A DNA stretch of 10,607 bases from Helicobacteraceae bacterium (GTDB lineage Bacteria; Campylobacterota; Campylobacteria; Campylobacterales; Sulfurimonadaceae): assembly GCA_015488075.1 (NCBI GenBank), contig WFOM01000271.1:1-10607 (forward strand), in the 5' to 3' direction. Below the pieces are notes generated by a model. That model made no database searches and was not told where the DNA came from. It saw only the letters and a list, made by a program, of their open reading frames with translations. The translations under genes were made by a program, and so were the position numbers. Of this stretch, positions 1-10,607 are shown in pieces (position 1 is the stretch's first letter; each line of letters opens with the position of its first letter).

Positions 1-1576
1 AGTCTATACCCACAACTTTTTCAAAATCTTTTGCAAGTTCAAACGATGCTCTGCCTACAGCACACCCTATATCTAGTGCTACATTTTTATTTGTCGTGTA
101 TTTTACAACCTCTTTTACACAATTTTTTAAAAAGTTTTCAACTCCAAAGGTATTTTCTTTTGAGTAGTGAAACTCAAGATACTCTGAGATTATATCATCT
201 TGTTCGTAGTAGTTTGTTTTCTCTTTGTTGTTAGATATAGCAAGTCTAAATCCCGCATGCTGGTAAAAATGTCTTCTAAATGCATATCTTGAGTGTTTTA
301 GGATCAAATTGCCGCTGCTTGCCCATGATGAACCCAAAATAATGTTGTGTTTTTCATCAAGTGTCGGTGTAGTAAAATCATCATAAAGAGGATGAGGTTT
401 AAATCCTTCAAATGCTCTTATGGGAGTTTTAGAGTGTTGCCACACATTTCCTACAACATCATATATAACATCGCCGCTTTTTGTTTTAAAGGGATGCATA
501 TCAACGGGAGTGGATGATGCAAATTTGAAGTCATGATTTGCTTTTTCTTTAGTAACAACCTCATCCAGTTCACAATACTCCCACATAGCAATGTATTCTG
601 CTTCGCTCATAAGGGTGTATTTTTTACCATCTTTTTTTGATTTGTATCTGGTGTATGCCATAGCTTCAAGGTTGCTTACTTCAACGGGAAAGTTTTTTGG
701 CATAGGGGTTATTTGAGCCATATATCTATACTCATATTCTCCATCAAAATCCTCAACCCAAAAAGGTGGATGTTTTATGCTATTTTTAGTTATAAACTCC
801 CACCCTTCTTCATCCCAGAACTCTTTATTTTCATATCCTCCATCTTTAACAAACTCCATAAACTCTTCGTTTGTTACCAGATGGTTTGAGACATAAAACT
901 CATCAAGTTCTGCTTCAAATCTGCCGTATTCGTTATCCCATCCGTAGTATTTGTCATTTTCAAAAGATTTGCCGAGTTTAACTTTGGTTGATGGTATTTT
1001 TACAAATTTGGTCTTTAGTTTTTTCCCTTCATCGCTAAAGTAGTATCTAAAACCTTTAACATCTTTTACAAACTCTATGGGCATTTGTCTGTGAAGGACC
1101 AAAGAGGTTTCTATATGTATCCTCTCATGCTCTATCCCCATTAAAACAGCCCACATACTTGAGTTCCAATTTATAGGCAGAGTAAAATCAAGACTCTCTA
1201 TAACATCCAAAACAACTGTTTTTACCTTTTGTCTATATTCTCTTACTTCAGATACTTTTGGCCATTTTATCTTGGAGTAGTCAAGATCATCCCACTCCAT
1301 CTCATCAACACCCACGGCAAAGAGTGATTCAAACTTCTCGTTTATCCTGTCATTTAGCACTTTTGCCAAAATCAGTTTGTTTATATAAAAGACAGCGGTA
1401 TGTCCGTAGTAAAATATCATGGCATGTCTTGTTTTTTCACTTTGTTTGTAAAAAACACTCTCATCTTTTAGATATTCAAAGATTTTTTCAAAAAGCTCAA
1501 ATGTTTCTAAAAAGTAGTTTTTTATCTCTTCTCTTTTTTTATCTATATTATCACCATCAAGCCTTATGCTTATCAT
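1..1576 (-). CDS. ovoA: OvoA: 5-histidylcysteine sulfoxide synthase / mercaptohistidine N-methyltransferase (3' end outside window)
   Basis: Only the first 525 residues are present; the reading frame is open to the left edge. OvoA joins cysteine to the C5 of histidine with oxygen at a mononuclear iron, and its C-terminal domain methylates the mercaptohistidine product, giving ovothiol A (family knowledge). Domains in order: a DinB-like N-terminal region with the iron motif H150-x3-H154-x-E156, an FGE-sulfatase/EgtB-like domain from about 190 to 430, and the start of a SAM methyltransferase with D-I-G-C-A-V-G-R near 505-512. The methyltransferase separates it from EgtB, which lacks one. The ATG at 1576 abuts the TAG stop of hisJ upstream, and a GGAG (1586-1583, minus strand) lies 6 nt before it, so the two genes are probably co-translated. 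The remaining methyltransferase, perhaps 180-250 residues, lies outside the window. No frameshift was seen when the frame was read through both ends. Confidence 0.92.
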   Translation of the reverse strand, partial: MISIRLDGDNIDKKREEIKNYFLETFELFEKIFEYLKDESVFYKQSEKTRHAMIFYYGHTAVFYINKLILAKVLNDRINEKFESLFAVGVDEMEWDDLDYSKIKWPKVSEVREYRQKVKTVVLDVIESLDFTLPINWNSSMWAVLMGIEHERIHIETSLVLHRQMPIEFVKDVKGFRYYFSDEGKKLKTKFVKIPSTKVKLGKSFENDKYYGWDNEYGRFEAELDEFYVSNHLVTNEEFMEFVKDGGYENKEFWDEEGWEFITKNSIKHPPFWVEDFDGEYEYRYMAQITPMPKNFPVEVSNLEAMAYTRYKSKKDGKKYTLMSEAEYIAMWEYCELDEVVTKEKANHDFKFASSTPVDMHPFKTKSGDVIYDVVGNVWQHSKTPIRAFEGFKPHPLYDDFTTPTLDEKHNIILGSSWASSGNLILKHSRYAFRRHFYQHAGFRLAISNNKEKTNYYEQDDIISEYLEFHYSKENTFGVENFLKNCVKEVVKYTTNKNVALDIGCAVGRASFELAKDFEKVVGID

Positions 1577-2359
1577 CTAAAACTCCACAAAATATCTTTT
1601 TCTGTTTTTATAAACCGCACACTGTGTATATCCTACCTCTTTTGCGAGGTTTTCAGCCTCTTGTGCATATCTTGAAACCTGAGCGGGTGAGTGTGCATCG
1701 CTTCCGAATGTTATGGGTATCTCAAGCTCATAAGCAAGTTTTAGTAAATCTTTTGAAGGGTATGATTCTTTGCAAGGTTTGTCATAACCTGCCGTGTTTA
1801 TCTCCAGAGTCATATCTGCTTTTTTTATAGCTTCAAGTGCTTTTTTTGCATATTCACGAGGTGTTTTTTTCTTTGGGTAGTATTTGAAAACTTTTATAAG
1901 ATCCAAATGTCCTACTATGTCAAAAAATCCGGTTTTTGCCATATCTTCCACCGTGTCAAAATATTTTTCCCAAATCGAGTCTATATCTTTGTCATCATAT
2001 TCTCTTAAAAACTCGGGATTGTCAAATCCCCACTTGTCCAAAAAATGAACCGAGCCTATAAGATAGTCAACATCCGCTTCAAGCACCCTTTTATCCATAT
2101 GCCCAGGCAGATAGTCAACTTCATAACCAAGCAAAACATCTATATTTTCTTTATATTTTTCTTTTATCTCTTTTACTTTTTCTTCATAAAAGTTCATCTC
2201 GTCAAATTTCATTCTGTATTTCGGGTCAAAATCCATTGGTGCATGATCGCTAAACCCATAGATTTGTGTGCCGTTTTCTACAGCCAGTTCTACATACTCC
2301 TCTATCTCTCCTTTTGCATGGTTGCAAAGTTTTGTATGGTTATGTAAATCAACTTTCAT
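1577..2359 (-). CDS. hisJ: HisJ-family histidinol-phosphatase (PHP domain)
   Basis: A 260-residue protein with the full set of PHP-domain metal ligands: H6-x-H8 near the start, S-D-H39, E80 in G-Y-E-V-D, H105 in S-V-H-F, H151 in G-H-L-D, and D221-x-H223 in G-S-D-A-H-S-P. Length and motif set fit the HisJ type of histidinol-phosphate phosphatase, which performs the penultimate step of histidine synthesis with a multinuclear metal centre in the cytoplasm (family knowledge). The ATG at 2359 has an AAGAGA-like ribosome site 4-10 nt upstream. It is the first gene of a minus-strand unit and its TAG stop directly touches the ATG of ovoA. OvoA consumes histidine, so the pairing could link histidine supply to ovothiol synthesis, but PHP phosphatases can be promiscuous and the true substrate is not shown by the sequence. 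Confidence 0.88.
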   Translation of the reverse strand: MKVDLHNHTKLCNHAKGEIEEYVELAVENGTQIYGFSDHAPMDFDPKYRMKFDEMNFYEEKVKEIKEKYKENIDVLLGYEVDYLPGHMDKRVLEADVDYLIGSVHFLDKWGFDNPEFLREYDDKDIDSIWEKYFDTVEDMAKTGFFDIVGHLDLIKVFKYYPKKKTPREYAKKALEAIKKADMTLEINTAGYDKPCKESYPSKDLLKLAYELEIPITFGSDAHSPAQVSRYAQEAENLAKEVGYTQCAVYKNRKRYFVEF

Positions 2360-2436
2360 AATTATCTCTTTTTGACTTTTAAATTTATAATTTTTATGAT
2401 ATTATACTAAAAATAAAGATAATTTTGGAGTTTAAA
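2360..2436. promoter_or_regulatory. Divergent promoter region between hisJ-ovoA and cheZ
   Basis: This very AT-rich 77-base spacer separates two divergent start codons. On the plus strand an extended -10, TGA-TATTAT, sits at 2397-2405 (alternative TATACT at 2403-2408), which would give a leader of about 25 nt for cheZ. On the minus strand a perfect TATAAT lies at 2406-2401, overlapping the plus-strand -10; TATAAA at 2389-2384 is an alternative. No convincing -35 box is visible on either strand, which fits Campylobacterota sigma-70 promoters, where an extended -10 plus AT-rich upstream DNA is typical. The promoter calls come from pattern reading only. Confidence 0.6.
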
Positions 2437-3126
2437 ATGACTCAGGAAGAATTAGATGCATTGATGAATGAAGATTTGGACAATCTGCCTGAAGAGATAC
2501 AGGAAGAAGCAAAAGAGGAACAGACAGAAGAGATAGCGGATATGCCGGAAGAGGGAAGTTACGGTAAAGTAGAAGCCACAAAGGCATGGCCACCACCTCC
2601 TCCAAGCGATGACAACAAAGTTGTGCATCAGCTTGACGATGTTACAAAAGAGTCTGAAGAAAAAGCAAACGAAATCTTAGAAGAGGTTGAGAAACTCGGT
2701 GATATTTTTATGGATACCGAAGAGGTTTTAAACTCGGTAAAAGAGGTTGTTGAGTCAAATTTAGAGACTTTTGAAAAACTAAGCCGGAAGTTTCCTTCTA
2801 TAAACACATTTAAAGAACAGGCGGAAAAAACTAAAGATGTTCTAAACTCTCTTGATGATGCTATCAACAAGATGATGGACGGAAACGATGCAACCATGGA
2901 TATCATGGATAAAATGCAGTTTCAGGATATCCACAGACAAAAAATAGAAAGGGTTATAAATATCATGAGAGCCCTTTCAAATTATATGAATGCACTTTTT
3001 TCAGGTAAGATTGATGATGAAAAACGGGTAAGCTCCGCTACACACATACACGGAGATACAACAACCGAAGATGTTGTTGATGAAGCAGATATAGAAGCAC
3101 TACTAGAGCAATTTGGTAAAAAATAA
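2437..3126 (+). CDS. cheZ: CheZ: CheY-P phosphatase (chemotaxis)
   Basis: A 229-residue acidic, mostly helical protein. CheZ speeds dephosphorylation of CheY-P and so resets flagellar switching. The catalytic signature F-Q-D-I-H-R-Q puts the acidic residue at D164 and the glutamine at Q168, matching D143/Q147 of E. coli CheZ. A proline run (W51, P52-P56) links an acidic N-terminus to the helical hairpin (about 70-190). The C-terminus D-I-E-A-L-L-E-Q-F (219-227) resembles the CheY-binding tail of known CheZ proteins. A longer reading begins at TTG 2425, but ATG 2437 has a GGAG (2427-2430) 6 nt upstream, and that TTG overlaps this ribosome site, so 2437 is preferred. No other chemotaxis gene is nearby. 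The order cheZ, U32, purE is, from memory, conserved in Campylobacter. Confidence 0.87.
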   Translation: MTQEELDALMNEDLDNLPEEIQEEAKEEQTEEIADMPEEGSYGKVEATKAWPPPPPSDDNKVVHQLDDVTKESEEKANEILEEVEKLGDIFMDTEEVLNSVKEVVESNLETFEKLSRKFPSINTFKEQAEKTKDVLNSLDDAINKMMDGNDATMDIMDKMQFQDIHRQKIERVINIMRALSNYMNALFSGKIDDEKRVSSATHIHGDTTTEDVVDEADIEALLEQFGKK

Positions 3127-3135
3127 TCTTCAAAA

Positions 3136-3151
3136 AGTGGCTTTTGCCACC
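3136..3151 (-). terminator. Stem-loop after cheZ; terminator-like only on the minus strand
   Basis: GTGGC (3137-3141), a TTTT loop and GCCAC (3146-3150) form a perfect 5-bp stem with one possible flanking pair. On the plus strand the stem is followed by CAAAA, with no T tract, so it should not stop cheZ transcription. Read on the minus strand, the stem is followed by TTTTTG, the layout of a short rho-independent terminator that would block antisense transcripts entering cheZ. On the plus strand it may instead protect the 3' end of the cheZ message. The stem is short. Confidence 0.4.
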
Positions 3152-3177
3152 AAAATCCACAACAGAAAGACAATTAT

Positions 3178-4470
3178 ATGAAAAAAGTTGAATTACTCTC
3201 ACCGGCAGGTAATTTGGAAAAACTAAAAATTGCAATAGAGTTTGGAGCAGATGCCGTCTATGGAGGGGTCAGCCATTTTAGTCTCAGGATAAGAAGCGGC
3301 AAAGAGTTTGATATGCAAAGTTTTAAAGAGGGGATAGATTATGCCCACAAAAGAGGCAAAAAAGTTTATGCTACCATAAACGGTTTTCCGTTTAACTCTC
3401 AGATAAAACTGCTAAAAAAACATATAGAACAGATGGCAGAGCTTGAACCGGATGCTTTTATAATCTCAACTCCTGGGGTCTTAAAACTTTGTCGTGAAAT
3501 TGCCCCACATATGCCGCTTCATCTTTCAACACAGGCAAATGTGTTAAATGTTATGGATGCGAGTTTCTATCATGATATGGGAGTTAGTCGTATAATAGCA
3601 GCAAGAGAGATAAGCCTAAAAGACTTAAAAGAGATAAAAAAAGAGCTGCCTGAACTTGAGTTGGAGGTATTTGTGCATGGGAGTATGTGCTTTGCCTACA
3701 GCGGCAGATGTCTTATATCTACACTTCAAAGTGGAAGAGTGCCAAACAGGGGAAGCTGTGCAAACGACTGCAGGTTTCCTTATGAGATATATGCCGCAAA
3801 TCCGGAAACAGGAACACTTTTCAAGCTTGTTGAGGAAGAGGGGATAGGCACATATATAATGAATGCCAAAGACTTAAATTTAGCTAGCCATATAAAAGAG
3901 ATACTTGACAGCGGTGCGGTTGATTCACTAAAGATAGAAGGTAGGACAAAAACCTCATACTATGCCGCAGTTACCGCTAAAGCTTATAGGATGGCTATAG
4001 ATGACTATTATACAGATAGCTATAACCCGCAAAAATATCAATACGAACTAGAATCTCTTCAAAACAGAGGTTATACCGATGCATATCTAATCTCAAGACC
4101 TTTTGAGAGAAACGATGCACAAAGTCTGGACTTTACCATACAGCTTGGCACTCATCAGGTTACAGGTGAAGTAACCGGGGACGGTGAGTATTTTATGTGC
4201 AAATACAAAACACTGCCCGGTGATGAGCTTGAGATAGTAGCACCGCTTGATGGTGAAATAACAGAATGTAAAAACGATATAGGCGAAGTTTATAAAAAAG
4301 ATGACAGATATTTTCTAAAGCTAAACAGGATTGAAACAAAAAACGGAAAAATTTTAGATAGTGTCCACAGCGGCAATCTAAACCCTATAAAACTGCCTGT
4401 AAAACTGCCTCCATACAGTTTTTTCAGGATACCGTCAAGTCCGGATATGGGAACATACCCTAAAAAATGA
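3178..4470 (+). CDS. U32-family protein (PrtC/TrhP-like, probable Fe-S RNA hydroxylation enzyme)
   Basis: A 430-residue protein with the U32 signature E-V-F-V-H-G-S-M-C followed by S-G-R-C-L-I-S. Four cysteines, C171, C178, C194 and C198, match the set that ligates a [4Fe-4S] cluster in characterised U32 members. The N-terminus (E-L-L-S-P-A-G-N, then G-A-D-A-V-Y-G-G) is the usual TIM-barrel start. The family was first called collagenase-like protease; members such as TrhP and RlhA instead hydroxylate tRNA U34 or 23S rRNA, and UbiU/UbiV act in oxygen-independent ubiquinone synthesis. Size and the C-terminal beta region beyond about 330 fit TrhP best, but the RNA target is not shown. The gene starts 51 nt after cheZ with a weak AGAAAGA ribosome site (3164-3170). 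In C. jejuni the equivalent is, from memory, Cj0701. Confidence 0.85.
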   Translation: MKKVELLSPAGNLEKLKIAIEFGADAVYGGVSHFSLRIRSGKEFDMQSFKEGIDYAHKRGKKVYATINGFPFNSQIKLLKKHIEQMAELEPDAFIISTPGVLKLCREIAPHMPLHLSTQANVLNVMDASFYHDMGVSRIIAAREISLKDLKEIKKELPELELEVFVHGSMCFAYSGRCLISTLQSGRVPNRGSCANDCRFPYEIYAANPETGTLFKLVEEEGIGTYIMNAKDLNLASHIKEILDSGAVDSLKIEGRTKTSYYAAVTAKAYRMAIDDYYTDSYNPQKYQYELESLQNRGYTDAYLISRPFERNDAQSLDFTIQLGTHQVTGEVTGDGEYFMCKYKTLPGDELEIVAPLDGEITECKNDIGEVYKKDDRYFLKLNRIETKNGKILDSVHSGNLNPIKLPVKLPPYSFFRIPSSPDMGTYPKK

Positions 4471-4497
4471 TATAATTTTAGCTAAAAAAGGGGATAG
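4468..4497 (+). promoter_or_regulatory. Internal promoter and ribosome binding site of purE
   Basis: An extended -10 box TGA-TATAAT (4468-4476) overlaps the stop codon of the U32 gene, so its TGN element is also the TGA stop. The predicted start point, near 4482-4484, falls inside a perfect 12-bp palindrome TTTTAGCTAAAA (4476-4487). A strong AAGGGGA ribosome site (4488-4494) lies 3 nt before the ATG. This would let purE and the genes after it be expressed apart from cheZ. Confidence 0.55.
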
Positions 4498-4998
4498 ATG
4501 AAATTTGTATCGATCATTATAGGAAGCAAGAGCGATTATGAAACGATGAAAGCCTGTGCGGATACTTTTGAGGCATTTGGAGTAAACTATGAGCTTATAA
4601 TCTCTTCGGCACACAGAAGCCCGGAGAGAACAAAAGAGTATATCAAAAAAGCTGAAGAAAAAGGTGCACAGGTTTTTATAGCAGCAGCAGGTATGGCGGC
4701 TCACTTAGCAGGAGTTTTGGCAAGTAAAACGGTAAAACCGGTGATAGGTGTTCCTATGAGTGCTTCGGCTCTTAGCGGTATAGATGCACTTCTCTCAACC
4801 GTTCAGATGCCGGCAGGTATGCCCGTAGCTACCGTTGCCATAGGAAAAGCAGGAGCTATAAATTCGGCATACCTTGCTATGCAGATACTTGCACTTGATG
4901 ATGAGGAACTTGCCATAAAACTAAAAGAGGACAGGATCTCAAAAGCAAAAAAAGTTGAGATGGATTCTATGGAGATAGAAACGATACTGGGAGAATGA
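4498..4998 (+). CDS. purE: PurE: N5-carboxyaminoimidazole ribonucleotide mutase
   Basis: A 166-residue class I PurE, the usual length. The enzyme moves the carboxyl group of N5-CAIR to C4 of the imidazole in purine synthesis, in the cytoplasm, normally as an octamer (family knowledge). Motifs seen: I-I-G-S-K-S-D (7-13) for phosphate binding, S-S-A-H-R-S-P with catalytic H39, and A-A-A-G-M-A-A-H-L-A-G for the substrate loop. The next gene starts 1 nt after its stop, so the two are coupled. PurE needs N5-CAIR from PurK in the usual bacterial route; purK is not in the window. No altered active-site residue was noticed. Confidence 0.96.
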   Translation: MKFVSIIIGSKSDYETMKACADTFEAFGVNYELIISSAHRSPERTKEYIKKAEEKGAQVFIAAAGMAAHLAGVLASKTVKPVIGVPMSASALSGIDALLSTVQMPAGMPVATVAIGKAGAINSAYLAMQILALDDEELAIKLKEDRISKAKKVEMDSMEIETILGE

Positions 4999-4999
4999 G

Positions 5000-5476
5000 A
5001 TGGAGCTGATGAGCAAAGAGGAATATGCAAAGTTAACCGGTCTTAGTTTGGATGCTATCGAAGAGATGATAGAGAGAAAAAAGCTCTCTATAAAAGTCCA
5101 AGGGGGTGAGGTAAAAATCGACCCATCATCAGGAGTAAACGATATAGTCCCTATGCAACTAAAAAACCTCTCTGCTCAGACACAAAATACAAAAGAACTC
5201 ACCGTAGGTTCAGAGTTTGTAGAAAAAACGATAGGAACCATAGTCAATCTTCACCAAAAAGTTCTTGATGCAAAAGATGAAACATTGGAGTCTTTGAAAA
5301 ATGAAAACCAGTTTTTAAAAGAGGCGTTAGAATCTCTTCAAGAACTTTATGATGAAGACAGAAAAACGATAGAAACACTCCAAAAACAACTAAAAATCGC
5401 TCAAGACGAAGTTGAGTTTCTAAAAAGAAAATACAAACTAATGTGGAACAAAACCATAGAGGAACACACCTCTTGA
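5000..5476 (+). CDS. Small HTH-like plus coiled-coil protein (Cj0703-like; possibly DUF3972)
   Basis: A 158-residue protein of unknown function. Residues 5-45 (K-E-E-Y-A-K-L-T-G-L-S, then I-E-E-M-I-E-R-K-K-L and a short strand) look like an excisionase/MerR-type helix-turn-helix. Residues about 75-150 are rich in E, K, L and Q with heptad character and should form a long coiled coil. There is no signal peptide or membrane segment. ATG 5000 has GGGAGA (4989-4994) 5 nt upstream and is preferred; ATG 5009 is a weaker in-frame alternative. It lies 1 nt after purE and overlaps the DUF89 start. By position it matches Cj0703 of C. jejuni; the DUF3972 name is from memory and uncertain. A DNA-binding or structural role is possible, but no function is claimed. 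Confidence 0.75.
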   Translation: MELMSKEEYAKLTGLSLDAIEEMIERKKLSIKVQGGEVKIDPSSGVNDIVPMQLKNLSAQTQNTKELTVGSEFVEKTIGTIVNLHQKVLDAKDETLESLKNENQFLKEALESLQELYDEDRKTIETLQKQLKIAQDEVEFLKRKYKLMWNKTIEEHTS

Positions 5477-6327
5477 ATATAACACAAACTTGCGTAGAGT
5501 GTATAATCAACCAGTCAAAAAGGGTAGGTGATACTTTAGGGCTTGATGCTTTTACAAAAGAACACATAGTCAGCCTTACTACAGATATGAGTAAAAACTT
5601 CTCTTTTTTTCAAACTCCTCCCGAGGTTGCAACACCTGTTTATGAAACTATAGCAAAAACGATAAAAACAGATGATATTTACAAAGATATAAAAGCCAAA
5701 TCAACAAAACAGGCCATCTCACTTTTACCTTTGCTGGAAGAAAAGCTCAAATCTTCAAACAACAGGTTTTTAACCGCCACAAAGATTGCTGTTGCCGGAA
5801 ATGTTATAGATTTGGCAAGTGAGTTTAAATTTGATCTTGAAAAAGAACTTGACAAGATTTTTGAAACCGATTTTGCCATAGACAATACAAAAGAGTTTTA
5901 TGAAAAGCTTTTAAACTCAAAAAAAGTAGTGATTTTGGGGGACAATGCGGGTGAGCATATATTTGACAGGCTTTATATACAAACTCTTAAAGATATGTTT
6001 GAGGATATAGAGTTTTTCTACTTTACAAGGGGTAAGCCCATCATAAATGATGTTACATATGATGAAGCGAAAAAAGCAGGTTTTGATGAGGTTTGCGAGG
6101 TTGTAGACTCAGGTGTGCCTACACCCGGATTTGTATATAATTTAGCAAACAAAAAAGCAAAAGAGCTTTTTGATAGTGCGGATTTGGTTATCAGCAAGGG
6201 TATGGGAAATTATGAATGCCTTACACCTTCACATAAAAAAGATATAGTATTTCTTCTAAAAGTTAAGTGTTCGGTTGTTGCTGCTTCTTTGGGACTTAAT
6301 GTAGGCGATATAGTTTGTAAACATTAA
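5473..6327 (+). CDS. DUF89 damage-control phosphatase (ARMT1-like)
   Basis: A 284-residue DUF89 (PF01937) protein. The family contains metal-dependent phosphatases that remove harmful or damaged phosphometabolites, such as sugar phosphates and oxidised phosphopantetheine. Motifs: the N-terminal C7-x2-C10, A-G-N-V-I-D (108-113), G-D-N-A-G-E (156-161) with the metal-binding D157/N158, R-G-K-P-I-I-N-D (186-193), S-K-G-M-G-N-Y-E (241-248) and L-L-K-V-K-C (261-266). The longest frame begins at GTG 5443, but TTG 5473 is preferred: AGAGGAA (5458-5464) lies 8 nt upstream, the GTG has no ribosome site, and the C-x2-C then falls within 10 residues of the start as in relatives. The TTG overlaps the TGA stop of the previous gene. 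The physiological substrate is unknown. Confidence 0.87.
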   Translation: MNITQTCVECIINQSKRVGDTLGLDAFTKEHIVSLTTDMSKNFSFFQTPPEVATPVYETIAKTIKTDDIYKDIKAKSTKQAISLLPLLEEKLKSSNNRFLTATKIAVAGNVIDLASEFKFDLEKELDKIFETDFAIDNTKEFYEKLLNSKKVVILGDNAGEHIFDRLYIQTLKDMFEDIEFFYFTRGKPIINDVTYDEAKKAGFDEVCEVVDSGVPTPGFVYNLANKKAKELFDSADLVISKGMGNYECLTPSHKKDIVFLLKVKCSVVAASLGLNVGDIVCKH

Positions 6328-6417
6328 CTACACGAAAATAACACAATCTTTTTGCTAACATTACACTAACACAAAAATTTTATACTTTCGCTAACAATCC
6401 AATAAAAAGGCGTTAAC
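6328..6417 (+). promoter_or_regulatory. Promoter region of the PqqD/ATP-grasp/decarboxylase operon, with CTAACA repeats
   Basis: This 90-base spacer holds a -10-like TATACT (6381-6386), giving a leader of about 25 nt, and an AAAAAGG ribosome site (6404-6410) 7 nt before ATG 6418. Three copies of CTAACA (6355-6360, 6366-6371, 6391-6396) and a related TTAACA (6413-6418, running into the start codon) surround the -10. The first two are 11 bp apart, one helical turn, which suits a dimeric regulator, though chance in AT-rich DNA cannot be excluded. No clear terminator for the DUF89 gene is visible, so read-through is possible. No small peptide gene with a start and ribosome site is seen here. Confidence 0.45.
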
Positions 6418-6657
6418 ATGGAGATGATAGAAAATTTGATCATAGATGAAAACAACATAGCATATAACAATGCTTTGGGCACTTCATACAAATTAAACGA
6501 AACAGGTAAAGATATCTTGGAATATTTAAAAAAAGGTCTCTCAAAAGATGAGATCCTTAACGAAATTGTTTCAAAATATGATATAGACAAAAAAGAGGCT
6601 TTTATAGATATACAAGATTTTTTTATAAAGCTTAAGTTGTATGGACTTGTATCATGA
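6418..6657 (+). CDS. PqqD-like free-standing RiPP recognition element (RRE)
   Basis: A 79-residue protein of PqqD length. The order fits the PqqD/RRE fold: short N-terminal strands, Y-K-L-N-E-T-G-K-D-I-L-E-Y-L (24-37), then G-L-S-K-D-E-I-L-N-E-I (40-50), a Y-D-I-D-K-K-E-A turn (54-61), and a final helix F-F-I-K-L-K-L-Y-G-L-V (68-78). RRE domains bind leader peptides of ribosomally made peptides as an added beta strand and hand them to modifying enzymes (family knowledge). Its stop overlaps the next ATG by 4 nt (ATGA), so translation is coupled to the ATP-grasp gene. No radical-SAM partner, the usual companion of PqqD, is in the window. Other PqqD-like proteins serve as peptide-modification chaperones in non-PQQ clusters, which is the likelier role here. 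Confidence 0.85.
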   Translation: MEMIENLIIDENNIAYNNALGTSYKLNETGKDILEYLKKGLSKDEILNEIVSKYDIDKKEAFIDIQDFFIKLKLYGLVS

Positions 6658-7667
6658 AAATAGCTGTTAGCGGACTTAACAATACAGACAATCCGGCTCC
6701 GGGTATACCGGTTATAAAAGGTATAAAAGATGAACATACAATCATAGGACTTTCATACGATCCAAACGAACCCGGAAACTATATGGGAATGTGTGAGAAA
6801 GTTTATCTTATGCCTTATCCTTCACTTGGTTTTGAAGAGCTTAAAAACAGGCTTTTATATATAAAAGAGAAAGATGGTATAGAAGCTGTTGTCCCAAACC
6901 TTGATGCAGAACTTCCTTTATATATAAAATACCAAAAGGATATAGAAGATATGGGAATAAAACTATTTTTACCCAGTTTGGAAAATTTTGAACTAAGAAA
7001 TAAAAACAGACTTGACAAGTTATCGTCGGAATTGAATATAACTTATCCTAAAACTTATGAAATCACATCTATTAACGAGCTTGAAAAAATATCAAAAGAG
7101 GCATCTTTTCCTTTAATGATAAAAGGAAATTACTATAAAGCATACAAAGCTTACAATTTAGAGAGTGCAATAGAGTATTTTTATAAAATTTCTAATGAAT
7201 GGGGATTTCCAATTTTGGTTCAAGAGGTTGTTAAAGGTGAAGAACTAAATTTAGTAGGTGTAGCTGACGGTAATGGAGAATTAAAAGGTGCAGTTACTAT
7301 AAAAAAACTAACAACGACGGATATAGGAAAAATATGGACAGGTGTTACTATACATAATGAAAAGCTTTTAGAGATAGCTAAAAAGTTTGTAAAAGCTACA
7401 AAATGGAGAGGTGCTTTTGAACTAGAATGTATAGTGAATATGAATCATATCTATCTTATAGAGATAAATCCAAGGTTTCCGGCATGGGTTCATTTTGCAA
7501 CAGAGGTTGGAGTAAACCTACCTAAAATGCTAATAAATTTGATTCAAGGAAAAAATGTCAAACAAAAGTTGGATTATCCGCAAAACAAGATGTATGTAAG
7601 ATATACAGGCGAGTTTGTAACAGATATGAGTAACTTTACAAAAATTTTAACATCAAAGGAATTATAA
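6654..7667 (+). CDS. ATP-grasp ligase (carbamoyl-phosphate-synthase-like family)
   Basis: A 337-residue protein. An N-terminal pre-ATP-grasp Rossmann-like half (1-110) is followed by N-R-L-D-K-L (117-122) and the ATP-grasp fold. Nucleotide and metal residues that can be placed: K157 in L-M-I-K-G, the Q-E-V-V-K-G-E-E hinge (190-197), E257 in A-F-E-L-E, and E270-I-N-P-R274. ATP-grasp enzymes activate a carboxylate as an acyl phosphate and join it to an amine or thiol, often to make peptide-like bonds. The substrate cannot be read from the sequence; next to an RRE, the candidates are modification of a leader-bearing peptide or conjugation of a free amino acid. It overlaps the RRE gene by 4 nt and the decarboxylase ATG by 1 nt, so all three are translationally coupled. 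Confidence 0.88.
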   Translation: MKIAVSGLNNTDNPAPGIPVIKGIKDEHTIIGLSYDPNEPGNYMGMCEKVYLMPYPSLGFEELKNRLLYIKEKDGIEAVVPNLDAELPLYIKYQKDIEDMGIKLFLPSLENFELRNKNRLDKLSSELNITYPKTYEITSINELEKISKEASFPLMIKGNYYKAYKAYNLESAIEYFYKISNEWGFPILVQEVVKGEELNLVGVADGNGELKGAVTIKKLTTTDIGKIWTGVTIHNEKLLEIAKKFVKATKWRGAFELECIVNMNHIYLIEINPRFPAWVHFATEVGVNLPKMLINLIQGKNVKQKLDYPQNKMYVRYTGEFVTDMSNFTKILTSKEL

Positions 7668-7765
7668 TGGAAAAAAAAGTTTATACAAAACCTACTATAA
7701 ATAAAATAGAATTTGCAATGGCTTCAAAATACGGCAGTCCGTTAAGAACACAAAAAGTAAGAAGA
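7667..7765 (+). other. RiPP-leader-like N-terminal segment of the decarboxylase
   Basis: Residues 1-33 precede the recognisable decarboxylase domain. They contain Y6-x-x-P9-x-I11-x-x-I14 within K-K-V-Y-T-K-P-T-I-N-K-I-E-F, the pattern (Y-x-x-P-x-L) that RRE domains read in lasso-type leaders. After it comes A-M-A-S-K-Y-G-S-P-L, whose K-Y-G-S-P-L (21-26) echoes K-F-G-S-P-L (46-51) at the true domain start. The motif match is seen in the sequence; recognition by the upstream RRE is inferred. Confidence 0.55.
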
Positions 7766-8998
7766 GATATAGACGGTATAGATGTGCATGAACTTACTGA
7801 AAAATTCGGTTCACCTTTGTTTGTATTTAGTGAATCGAAGATAGAGGAGTTATATACAAAACTATATACGGCTTTTAATTCAAGATACAAAGATGTTACA
7901 TTCGGATGGAGCTATAAAACAAACTATCTAAACGGTATATGTAAAGTTTTTCATAAATTAGGTTCAATTGCCGAGGTTGTTAGTGAGTTTGAGTATCAAA
8001 AAGCAAGAGCTTTGGGAATAGAGGGTAAAGATATAATCTTTAACGGTCCGTATAAACCTTATAATGATTTAAAGCTGGCTGTTAAAGAAGGTGCTAAGAT
8101 TCATATAGACAATTTTTTTGAACTTAATGATTTGGAAAAGATTGCAGATGAGCTAAACCAAACTATAAATGTAGCTATAAGAGTAAATATGGATACCGGT
8201 ATATATCCTCAATGGTCAAGATTCGGATTTAATTATGAAAGCGGTGAAGCATATGATGCTATAAAAAGGATCTATGAAACAGGCAAAATGAATCTTGTCG
8301 GACTTCATACACATATCGGGACATTTATGTTAGATGCTAATGCTTATCGTTTGGCTACAACAAAATTAATGATGTTGAAAGAGATAGCAGAAAAAGAGTT
8401 CAATGCCGAAATAGAGTATATAGATTTGGGCGGAGGTTTTGCCAGCAAATCGCATTTAAAAGGGATTTATCAATCACCGGAAGTTGTTGTTCCAACTGCT
8501 GAAGATTATGCTGAAGCTATAACAAATGCAATATATGAACATAACAAGTCTAAGAGACTTCCAAAACTTTATCTTGAAACAGGGAGAGCTTTGATAGATG
8601 AAGCAGGTTTCTTGCTTACATCGGTTGTAGGATATAAAAGATTTCCAGACGGTAAAAAAGGGTATATACTTGATGCTGGAGTAAATCTGCTTTATACTTC
8701 AACGTGGTATAACTTTAATGTAGAACTTGATAAACGGTATGAAGGTGAAAATGAACCAAGTGTTTTAAACGGTCCATTATGTATGAACATAGATGTGATA
8801 GAAGAAAATATAATGCTTCCTCCTCTTGATAGAGGCAGTCTCTTAACACTATCGCCTGTCGGTGCATATAATTACACACAATCTATGCAGTTTATAAGGT
8901 ATAAACCGGCAGTTGTTCTTATAACAAAGAACGGAGAAGCCAAACTTATAAAAGAGATAGATGACTTGGCAACTATAAATTATAAAGAGGTTGAATAA
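7667..8998 (+). CDS. PLP-dependent decarboxylase, LysA/ornithine-decarboxylase fold, with leader-like N-terminal extension
   Basis: A 443-residue fold-type III decarboxylase. The PLP lysine is K84 in W-S-Y-K-T-N; H-T-H-I-G (214-218), L-G-G-G-F (254-258) and a phosphate-site E304-T-G-R307 follow. The C-terminal domain has G-P-L-C372-M-N and G-A-Y401. Two positions differ from diaminopimelate decarboxylase: E-T-G-R replaces E-P-G-R, and C-M-N replaces C-E-S, while the tail after G-A-Y lacks the usual S-N-Y-N stretch, so the substrate is probably not diaminopimelate. The LysA-like domain starts near residue 34 (D-I-D-G-I-D); before it lies an extension with K-K-V-Y-T-K-P-T-I-N-K-I (3-14) resembling a RiPP leader. 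AAAGGA (7655-7660) lies 6 nt before the ATG. Spacing to both neighbours is 1 nt or an overlap, so it belongs to the RRE/ATP-grasp operon. Confidence 0.88.
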   Translation: MEKKVYTKPTINKIEFAMASKYGSPLRTQKVRRDIDGIDVHELTEKFGSPLFVFSESKIEELYTKLYTAFNSRYKDVTFGWSYKTNYLNGICKVFHKLGSIAEVVSEFEYQKARALGIEGKDIIFNGPYKPYNDLKLAVKEGAKIHIDNFFELNDLEKIADELNQTINVAIRVNMDTGIYPQWSRFGFNYESGEAYDAIKRIYETGKMNLVGLHTHIGTFMLDANAYRLATTKLMMLKEIAEKEFNAEIEYIDLGGGFASKSHLKGIYQSPEVVVPTAEDYAEAITNAIYEHNKSKRLPKLYLETGRALIDEAGFLLTSVVGYKRFPDGKKGYILDAGVNLLYTSTWYNFNVELDKRYEGENEPSVLNGPLCMNIDVIEENIMLPPLDRGSLLTLSPVGAYNYTQSMQFIRYKPAVVLITKNGEAKLIKEIDDLATINYKEVE

Positions 8999-8999
8999 G

Positions 9000-10607
9000 T
9001 TGATAACCAAAGAAGGTATGTATAATATACTAAAACCGTATTCAGCTATACTTTTTTTAGATAATAAAGTTGTGGCATTTGTTGTGTTGGCCATAACTTT
9101 TATAAATCCTTATGTAGCTATAAGCGGTATATTTGCTGTTGTTTTTACTATAGTCTTTGCTGAAATTATAGAATTTAAGGAGAGTTATCTTTCTGAAGGT
9201 TTTTATATATATAACTCTTTGTTGGTAGGTATGGGTATAGGATATCTTTATAAACCTTCTTTGATAAGTTTGTCACTTATAGCTATAACTTCTGCTTTGA
9301 CATTTTTGTTGTCTTTTATGTTAAATAGGCTATTTTTATATTATAAGATACCTATACTTTCTCTCCCTTTTTCAATAGTTACTATGTTTGCATATCTTGC
9401 ATCATTAAAATATTCCGGACTTCTTACCTCTATTGTAAACAATGCAACACTATTTGATATAGATTTACCTTTATATTTCAGCGGTTTTTTTAAATCGTTG
9501 GGAACTATACTTTTTCTACCTAATAATTTGGCCGGGATTTTGATTTTTGTTTTGATTTTGGCGGTATCCAGGATAATGGCTATAGTTTCTGTTAGCGGTT
9601 ATTATTTTGGAGTTATATTGCATTCTTTGTTTATAGGTTCTTTGTATCAAGCTTTTAGTGATCCGTTTGCATTTAACTATATACTTGTAGCTGTTGCACT
9701 TTGTGGTATATTTTTACTTCCAACCATAAAAAATTTTTTTATAGCACTAATCGGTGTCGGGATTAGTGTAGTTTTAACAGATGCTATAGCAATTTTGTTT
9801 AACTACTATTTGATTCCTGTTTTTACATTACCGTTTAATATAACTGTTATTTCTTTTATATTTATATTGTCTATCATATACTACAAGGAGTTTAATACAA
9901 ATATAAAACCGACTCCGGAAGCTTCACTCTCAAGTTATTTAAGCACTATTTTTAGATTTGGAAAAACTCCCGTTCAGATATCTTTGCCTTTTAGTGGACA
10001 ATGGAAAGTTTACCAGGGATTTGATTCTAAATGGACACATAAAGGTGAGTATAAATTTGCTTACGATTTTGTAAAAACCAAAAACGGTCAAACTTTTAAA
10101 AACGATGGAGATTATTTGGATGATTATTTTGCTTTTGGTGAAGCTGTTTTTTCACCTGTAAGTGGATATGTAGTGGATTTAAGAACAGATTTAAAAGACA
10201 ATTTTATAGGTGAAGTAGACAGAATAAACAACTGGGGAAACTATATAATCATAAAAAGCGATTACGGTTTTTTTGTAGAGATAAGCCATCTTATGCAGTT
10301 CAGTATAAAAGTAAATATAGGAGAGTATGTCAAAGAGGGAGATGTTATAGCAAAATGCGGCAACAGTGGTTATTCACCACAACCACATATACATTTACAG
10401 GTTCAAGATACAGGTGTAATAGGTGCCGTTACAAGAGAATTTTGCTTTAACAGGTATATCAAAGATGACAAGTTGATTATAAGTAATATACCTAAAGAAG
10501 ATGAGGAAGTGGAAAATGTTATAGTAGATAAAAGCATAGAAGCAAGGTTGACATTTATCCTTGATGACAGATTTACTTATAACATTTATGAAGGATTTGT
10601 AAAAAAA
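9000..10607 (+). CDS. Urea-transporter-like membrane domain fused to M23 (LytM) peptidase (3' end outside window)
   Basis: An open frame of 536 codons runs off the right edge. TTG 9000 is preferred as the start: AAGAGG (8985-8990) lies 9 nt upstream and the gene begins 1 nt after the decarboxylase stop; ATG 9018 has its purine run too close. Residues 15-295 are hydrophobic with about ten membrane segments and two urea-transporter-like half repeats: Y-N-S-L-L-V-G (71-77) with S-L-P-F (121-124), and F-N-Y-I-L-V-A (225-231) with T-L-P-F (276-279). After a linker (298-325) comes an M23 domain with H347, D356, H430 and H463-x-H465, the usual zinc and catalytic set. M23 domains cut peptide cross-bridges of peptidoglycan or bind them. 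The tail after about 490 is an unassigned beta-rich piece. Transport of urea itself is unproven; the operon suggests a small amide or amine product. Confidence 0.85.
   Translation, partial: MITKEGMYNILKPYSAILFLDNKVVAFVVLAITFINPYVAISGIFAVVFTIVFAEIIEFKESYLSEGFYIYNSLLVGMGIGYLYKPSLISLSLIAITSALTFLLSFMLNRLFLYYKIPILSLPFSIVTMFAYLASLKYSGLLTSIVNNATLFDIDLPLYFSGFFKSLGTILFLPNNLAGILIFVLILAVSRIMAIVSVSGYYFGVILHSLFIGSLYQAFSDPFAFNYILVAVALCGIFLLPTIKNFFIALIGVGISVVLTDAIAILFNYYLIPVFTLPFNITVISFIFILSIIYYKEFNTNIKPTPEASLSSYLSTIFRFGKTPVQISLPFSGQWKVYQGFDSKWTHKGEYKFAYDFVKTKNGQTFKNDGDYLDDYFAFGEAVFSPVSGYVVDLRTDLKDNFIGEVDRINNWGNYIIIKSDYGFFVEISHLMQFSIKVNIGEYVKEGDVIAKCGNSGYSPQPHIHLQVQDTGVIGAVTREFCFNRYIKDDKLIISNIPKEDEEVENVIVDKSIEARLTFILDDRFTYNIYEGFVKK

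Follow-up and report, generated by a model that had tools for sequence, protein, structure and literature searches.

RiPP recognition elements (RREs), from the biosynthesis of ribosomally synthesized and post-translationally modified peptides (RiPPs), are known for reading precursor peptides. Among solved examples, the lasso B1 proteins PbaB1, TbiB1 and TfuB1 are closest to the RRE considered here; their PDB entries are RRE-leader complexes according to PMC13381572, and the leaders of such systems follow a [Y/W]xxPx[L/V/I/F/A] pattern. A second group of relevant proteins are decarboxylases of the alanine racemase (AR) fold. PMC7857480 describes FigC, SbnH, MccE and BtrK as using conjugated substrates, namely citryl amino acids, a microcin C intermediate (MccE) and a glutamylated carrier protein (BtrK); in that account BtrK of butirosin biosynthesis acts on a carrier-bound amino acid and MccE on a group added to a ribosomal peptide product. 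Finally, pearlins (PEARL) are, in the excerpts available, small molecules built on a ribosomal carrier peptide. We describe here an operon in which genes for a discrete PqqD-like RRE, an ATP-grasp ligase and an AR-fold pyridoxal phosphate (PLP) decarboxylase stand together, and in which the decarboxylase itself begins with an RRE-type leader. It lies in a 10,607-nucleotide stretch of DNA (contig WFOM01000271.1, positions 1 to 10,607, assembly GCA_015488075.1; hereafter the window) from a Helicobacteraceae bacterium whose genome is in 274 contigs and 81.9% complete. We favour, at a probability of roughly one half, a self-carried acceptor arm: the RRE would dock the decarboxylase tail, the ATP-grasp enzyme would load it, and the decarboxylase would act on the adduct.

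The three genes are translationally coupled, as an initial annotation made from the DNA letters alone had claimed: the TGA stop of the RRE gene (ending at 6657) overlaps the ATG of the ATP-grasp gene at 6654 by 4 nt, and the ATP-grasp gene ends at 7667, the first nucleotide of the decarboxylase ATG, which gives a 1-nt overlap. The decarboxylase N-terminus reads MEKKVYTKPTINKI / MEKKVYTKPTINKIEFAMASKYGSP. The same annotation had proposed that a YxxPxI leader of RRE type precedes an otherwise normal decarboxylase domain, and homologues bear this out, as YxxPx[hydrophobic] is present in 78/78 named homologues with a readable N-terminus among the best 80 of 374 relatives taken in the named-genome search. 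It is this count that constitutes the real conservation result, and not the 77 of 80 named loci picked by the regular expression YxxPx[ILVMF] near the start, in which the invariance of Y6 and P9 is partly by construction; of the three loci outside the expression, L106 has the motif, the reading frame of L036 is broken and the contig cuts off L082. In the 77 aligned sequences, leader position 11 holds Ile 74 times and position 13 holds Lys or Arg 76 times. The leader motif is beyond chance, because Y..P.[ILV] occurs within 20 residues of the first start codon in 75/81 decarboxylase open reading frames (ORFs) and in 1/625 other ORFs of at least 100 residues in the same loci. Codon usage at the motif spans all four Pro and both Tyr codons, and therefore selection acts on the protein. 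Furthermore, 45 PDB sequences (E 1e-10) align to the decarboxylase profile only from position 30 or later. With regard to what defines a RiPP precursor, the N-terminal leader with an RRE motif is there at every readable named locus, and the short peptide is not: the leader bearer is a 443-residue enzyme, and separate peptides were seen only in loci L103 and L173. One might argue that this decarboxylase subfamily simply has the extension as an ordinary piece of its N-terminal structure and that any likeness to an RRE leader is coincidental, and K21-P25 could indeed pack against the catalytic domain. Given the motif background of one ORF in 625, we regard this explanation as very improbable, and the distribution of the RRE gene tells against it as well.

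The extension is conserved together with the RRE, so that the concern raised in the initial annotation, that it might be absent or unconserved in homologues keeping the RRE, was not borne out. An upstream RRE gene is present in 68/68 named loci where the contig extends far enough (68/80 overall; lowest score 63.5 bits). The remaining 12 lie on contigs that start within the ATP-grasp or decarboxylase gene or immediately ahead of it, and one of these loci, L054, retains an RRE end. When 240 genomes of the phylum Campylobacterota were searched, the decarboxylase (E up to 1e-100) was found in 16 and the RRE (at least 98 bits) in the same 16, all of which also have the leader; the cut of 98 bits was chosen after the fact, but the next RRE-like score is 32 bits, which leaves a wide gap. 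Such a coincidence is hardly expected of a mere structural part of the enzyme. LysA-like control genes (21 paralogues, L011-L031, and five further genes, L161-L165) lack both the leader and an RRE within about 1.5 kb in 26/26 cases. A second subfamily (L141-L160), from the phylum of G060, has leader, ATP-grasp and RRE in 20/20 loci, with 17 Tyr and three Phe leaders; the RREs of L153 and L159 are cut by the locus end. In two genomes a stop-interrupted decarboxylase was seen (G897:C1:850613-851809, L227, and G1057:C1:204478-205732, L228 and L229), with the RRE genes and leader letters remaining; these may be pseudogenes or sequencing errors. Other PqqD-like ORFs of Campylobacterota, at 22-32 bits, lie outside the operon (L246 in G041, L247 in G1052, L248 in G1067 and L249 in G012).

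A 28-row RRE profile compared with the PDB found lasso RREs as its best matches (TbiB1, 5v1u/5v1v, 52.1 bits; TfuB1, 6jx3, 41.3 bits; PbaB1, 9x90, 26.1 bits), while the window RRE stays under the cut-offs of the NCBIfam lasso PqqD models (36.1 vs 70 and 28.8 vs 80). The leader pocket of PbaB1 consists of Y39, L41, I44, I48, L65, Y69, V71, E75, Q79, F83, L87 and L92, of which Q79 hydrogen-bonds the first aromatic residue of the leader (PMC13381572). All 12 positions map without gaps onto Y24, L26, T29, I33, I50, Y54, I56, E60, D64, F68, L72 and L77 of the window RRE, in a profile alignment whose matching letters imply a chain-number offset of 18; T29 and D64 differ in kind from I44 and Q79 of PbaB1. 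Among 68 RREs, N27 is conserved in 65, I33 in 66, D64 in 68, F68 in 65 and L72 in 64. As D64 is aligned with PbaB1 Q79, it maps to a leader-contacting residue of a solved lasso complex.

Position 64 also varies with the leader. In the 97 rows in which both parts are readable, it is Asp in 90/90 rows with a Tyr leader and in 0/7 rows with a Phe or Leu leader (Y, Y, H, G, S, A and Y instead). This set leaves out presumed duplicates (L139, L140, L166, L167, L174, L175 and L176) and loci with no RRE on the contig; the leader label of L159 and residues 64 and 68 of L171 were set by hand, and for L173 the leader of the separate peptide was set against the RRE of that locus. Of the 79 RRE columns, column 64 shares the most mutual information with the leader residue (0.377; next 0.229) and, ragged end columns 1 and 79 aside, is the only one with no residue common to the two leader classes. 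Fisher's test for the D64/Tyr association gives p 8e-11, a value that takes no account of kinship; along the tree the leader changed twice and D64 changed twice, concordantly in both cases. Such covariation is not what a coincidental structural part would lead one to expect. Taken with the pocket mapping, it lets us strongly infer that leader binding by this RRE follows the lasso mode, the leader Tyr lying next to D64, and, judging from these sequences, the RRE very probably does bind the decarboxylase tail.

What the tail does beyond binding is less obvious. The leader is followed by a core-like segment in which K21 and G23 are invariant in the 77/77 named sequences of the alignment, neither residue having been used in picking them. 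In the second subfamily the Lys is kept in 20/20 and the Gly in 19/20, and in the 16 Campylobacterota genomes with the decarboxylase a Lys occurs in 16/16, with Gly two residues later in 15/16; G874 and G881 (QKSG) and G876 (TKHG) retain K-x-G amid changed neighbouring residues (L223, L225 and L226). The tails of these three loci (TQKSGAFGNP, TKHGNYGNP) share GNP with some Verrucomicrobia-type tails that have no K-x-G and possibly represent an intermediate core type. The conservation of K-x-G is at most suggestive of a modified core. The initial annotation had left it open whether the tail serves as a tether or as the substrate of the ATP-grasp enzyme, and K-x-G favours the latter; a clade of four loci without that Lys argues the other way. 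The ATP-grasp enzyme matches carbamoyl-phosphate-synthase-like models and, weakly, PylC; E258, E270, N272 and R274, which we take to be the usual ATP-grasp metal/ATP residues, are invariant in 8/8 compared sequences. PylC acylates the epsilon-amine of lysine, and because of the weak PylC likeness K21 is the best candidate acceptor. We put the chance that the tail is covalently loaded at about even, and we name K21 as the loading site only tentatively.

The main rival to a loaded tail is docking only, in which the RRE would serve as an adaptor bringing the decarboxylase to the ATP-grasp enzyme, the free ligated intermediate would be channelled and the tail would stay unmodified. The leader pattern, the co-occurrence and the D64 covariation fit this idea equally well, and FigC and SbnH act on free conjugates. 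It would also allow a leader without K-x-G, as is seen in four Verrucomicrobia-type fused loci of one clade (L169, L170, L171 and L211), which keep the leader (FEPP, LEPP, FEAP and FEPP, respectively) and have neither K-x-G nor such a Lys. Docking only poorly explains, on the other hand, why K21 and G23 are retained in every named homologue of the alignment, and we consider it possible, though rather less than probable.

Several observations weigh against the self-carried acceptor arm and need to be gathered here. The absence of K-x-G in the Verrucomicrobia-type clade is one of them, and with the altered motifs of G051 (L006/L224; SKVP, Lys without the Gly) and L160 (KFA) it means that K21 is not a universal acceptor; going by these sequences, either the putative acceptor can differ in that clade or the tail can serve docking alone. 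The covariation at position 64 amounts to two evolutionary events only (sign test, p 0.5). As for the separate peptides described below, the gene context of L173 is known from one genome, its 11 peptide homologues having been compared by peptide sequence, the branch leading to its decarboxylase is very long (2.9), and the L103 peptide is a singleton.

The leader also occurs on separate peptides, which is at odds with its being a structural part of the decarboxylase. In the distant relative L173 (G614, Verrucomicrobia per its protein record) the genes encode an RRE, an ATP-grasp enzyme, a small peptide, a second ATP-grasp enzyme and a decarboxylase without a leader. The peptide, 64 residues long and encoded between the two ATP-grasp genes, carries YEKP and a CKMG core; YEKP, GCKMGHGLFPF and YRR are invariant in it and its 11 homologues (12/12). 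In L103 a 64-residue peptide with YHKPII and SKYG is encoded between the ATP-grasp and decarboxylase genes, alongside the fused leader. A predicted leader with K-x-G is found, then, both on free peptides and on the enzyme, and because L173 has leader and core on a separate peptide and a leaderless decarboxylase, the tail of the window decarboxylase resembles a module of the RiPP-precursor type that has been joined to an enzyme. In the tree, 53 fused rows lie on one side of a branch, and L173 with 17 LysA-like rows on the other (support 100/97.7). The invariant GCKMGHGLFPF on a small leader-bearing peptide is again something that docking only poorly explains. We consider it a reasonable, if somewhat less than even, proposition that this is a self-carrying enzyme, that is, a precursor (leader plus acceptor-lysine core) fused to a PLP decarboxylase, whose own tail would carry the substrate built by the ATP-grasp enzyme, the ancestral separate-carrier form surviving in clusters of the L173 type. 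A 406-residue ORF 3' of the leaderless decarboxylase of L173 (4456-5676, minus strand) has a CTMCDYGG cysteine stretch and no Pfam match at E 1; we presume that it could be a radical-SAM-like partner.

These peptides also bring up a classical RiPP, in which the tail or an unlinked peptide would be modified and proteolytically released as the product, the decarboxylase being merely the vehicle. The precursor-like peptides of L103 and L173 are in its favour. Yet a loose form of the motif occurs in 172/8325 short ORFs of 81 loci, and by eye the one in L103 is the sole operon-linked case. In the window itself a missed separate precursor was rejected, since the five short ORFs with the loose motif on both strands are all antisense to longer ORFs. 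No relatives of the L103 peptide were found in the protein database, and a search of 149 genomes from its class gave only weak matches (E 0.002-0.08); similarly, no standalone-peptide context beyond G614 turned up in plasmids, phages, viral contigs and 387 genomes of the G614 phylum. Moreover, among the representatives of the eight recurrent neighbour clusters (not every ORF being scanned) there is no lasso cyclase (PF00733), no B2 protease and no evident leader protease besides an M23 domain. We regard a classical RiPP as improbable. The lasso B1 systems, whose client is a precursor peptide, differ from the present one: the client here is a 443-residue enzyme, and a lasso cyclase is missing among the recurrent neighbours scanned.

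Returning to the self-carried acceptor arm, the substrate of the decarboxylase can be narrowed down. The nearest solved structure is FigC (7kh2), with BtrK (2j66) also related, and the FslC/FigC model of NCBIfam scores best, at 231 bits against a cut-off of 500; the LysA model TIGR01048 gives 225.9 bits, below its cut-off of 297.9. An ordinary LysA was rejected on score and active site. In the eight relatives with a family member there is another LysA-like match as well, which begins at query residue 25-41. The citrate ligands of FigC predicted by docking are H357 and R387 (PMC7857480). By manual alignment matching, FigC M355 is kept as M373, which leaves the CM motif shared with FigC/FslC, whereas H357 is replaced by I375 and R387 by Q405, both invariant in 49 rows; with its predicted citrate ligands replaced, a citryl-ornithine (siderophore) decarboxylase was rejected. 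Because this clade acts on conjugates and the citrate ligands are replaced here, the substrate is likely to be a conjugated, non-citryl compound made by the ATP-grasp enzyme.

In the favoured mechanism, the RRE would present the decarboxylase tail to the ATP-grasp enzyme, which would ligate to the tail, most likely at the epsilon-amine of K21, a carboxylic acid, possibly an amino acid joined through the carboxylate of its side chain. The fused decarboxylase, working in cis or across the dimer, would then strip the adduct of its free alpha-carboxylate, comparably to BtrK and MccE. The product would later be released and moved by the transporter; we can only guess that the M23 domain encoded by the fourth gene releases it. 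BtrJ is an ATP-grasp ligase, and the gene content is compatible with a carrier logic of the BtrIJK type. BtrI, though, is a carrier protein in its own right; no such protein was recognised in the present system, where the RRE and the leader-bearing tail stand in its place. The available part of PMC7857480 mentions no RRE or leader on MccE, and compared with pearlins, as far as the excerpts describe them, an ATP-grasp enzyme replaces the aminoacyl-tRNA ligase and the carrier-like module is fused to a pathway enzyme.

The features of the window are collected in Table 1. The Pfam cut-offs (23.4 for PF05402, 29.1 for ATPgrasp_Ter and 23.4 for Orn_Arg_deC_N) are all exceeded.

Table 1. Coordinates of the operon and its parts in the window
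Feature	Position	Strand	Basis
Discrete PqqD-like RRE, 79 aa	6418..6657	+	PF05402 43.1 bits; D64 = 6607-6609, F68 = 6619-6621
ATP-grasp ligase, 337 aa, carbamoyl-phosphate-synthase-like, weakly PylC-like	6654..7667	+	ATPgrasp_Ter 43.9 bits
Decarboxylase ORF, 443 aa	7667..8998	+	Orn_Arg_deC_N 111.6 bits
Putative built-in leader, residues 1-14 (M-EKKV-Y6-TK-P9-T-I11-N-K-I)	7667..7708	+	Conserved motif; D64 covariation
Core-like segment S20-K21-Y22-G23-S24-P25	7724..7741	+	K21/G23 conservation; standalone peptides share K-x-G
LysA/FigC-type PLP decarboxylase domain, from I35	7769..8998	+	PF02784, PF00278
Putative PLP lysine K84	7916-7918	+	Within decarboxylase domain
C372-M373-N374-I375-D376	8780-8794	+	Within decarboxylase domain
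Urea-transporter (PF03253) and M23 peptidase fusion	9018..10607	+	Probable start ATG 9018; runs off window end

As to the extent of the system, the operon and leader of the initial annotation stand, but the module is longer, as K-x-G follows the leader, and the operon continues past 8998 into the urea-transporter (UT)/M23 gene. A UT/M23 homologue is found in 75/81 loci, window included, a 290-residue protein without a Pfam match in 56/81, a TPR protein in 51/81, a response-regulator cluster in 27/81 and a histidine-kinase cluster in 8/81, many loci being cut. The eight recurrent neighbour clusters are represented by UT/M23, the 290-residue protein, TPR, a response regulator, two histidine kinases, DUF2202 and DUF4405. 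This recurrent set, with UT/M23 and two-component genes, suggests that the product may be exported or envelope-related and, in some loci, under two-component control. Judged by eye, the 290-residue protein is probably exported, and the M23 H/D and HxH residues are retained in the UT/M23 fusion. A defence system was rejected, as PADLOC gave no match for the four proteins at E 0.01. In L090 (167-3846) a complete set is accompanied by two RRE genes and an incomplete ATP-grasp ORF, with a 477-residue ORF between them, which resembles a partial duplication. Elsewhere in the window, the 5' neighbour (5473-6327, plus strand) is an ARMT1-like damage-control phosphatase (PF01937) that looks unrelated to the operon, and so, seemingly, is a long reverse-strand ORF at 2-1576.

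Among the open-licence papers listed by the literature searches, titles and the beginnings of abstracts showed no RRE/ATP-grasp/decarboxylase set. The main text of the RRE-Finder paper (PMC7470986) contains neither "ATP-grasp" nor "decarboxylase" (0 occurrences each), that of PMC12710340 contains "decarboxylase" 0 times and "ATP-grasp" once, in a filter list, and PMC12455567, in its available part, deals with other leaders. By genome record titles, the family is spread over Campylobacterota, Aquificota, Ignavibacteriota, Verrucomicrobia and Thiotrichaceae. Going by their names, we take many of the carrier genera to be sulfur and vent genera. In their sources these decarboxylase genes are labelled diaminopimelate decarboxylase or alanine racemase, and the leader tag beside an RRE gene points to an undescribed pathway, with an enzyme that would be docked to or loaded by its partner. 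Genes under those labels become a testable new pathway and a natural leader-fusion design, and searches restricted to short precursors would miss such systems. With a full-size enzyme as the client of a discrete RRE, the leader-RRE principle would come to cover enzyme assembly or carriers borne on enzymes.

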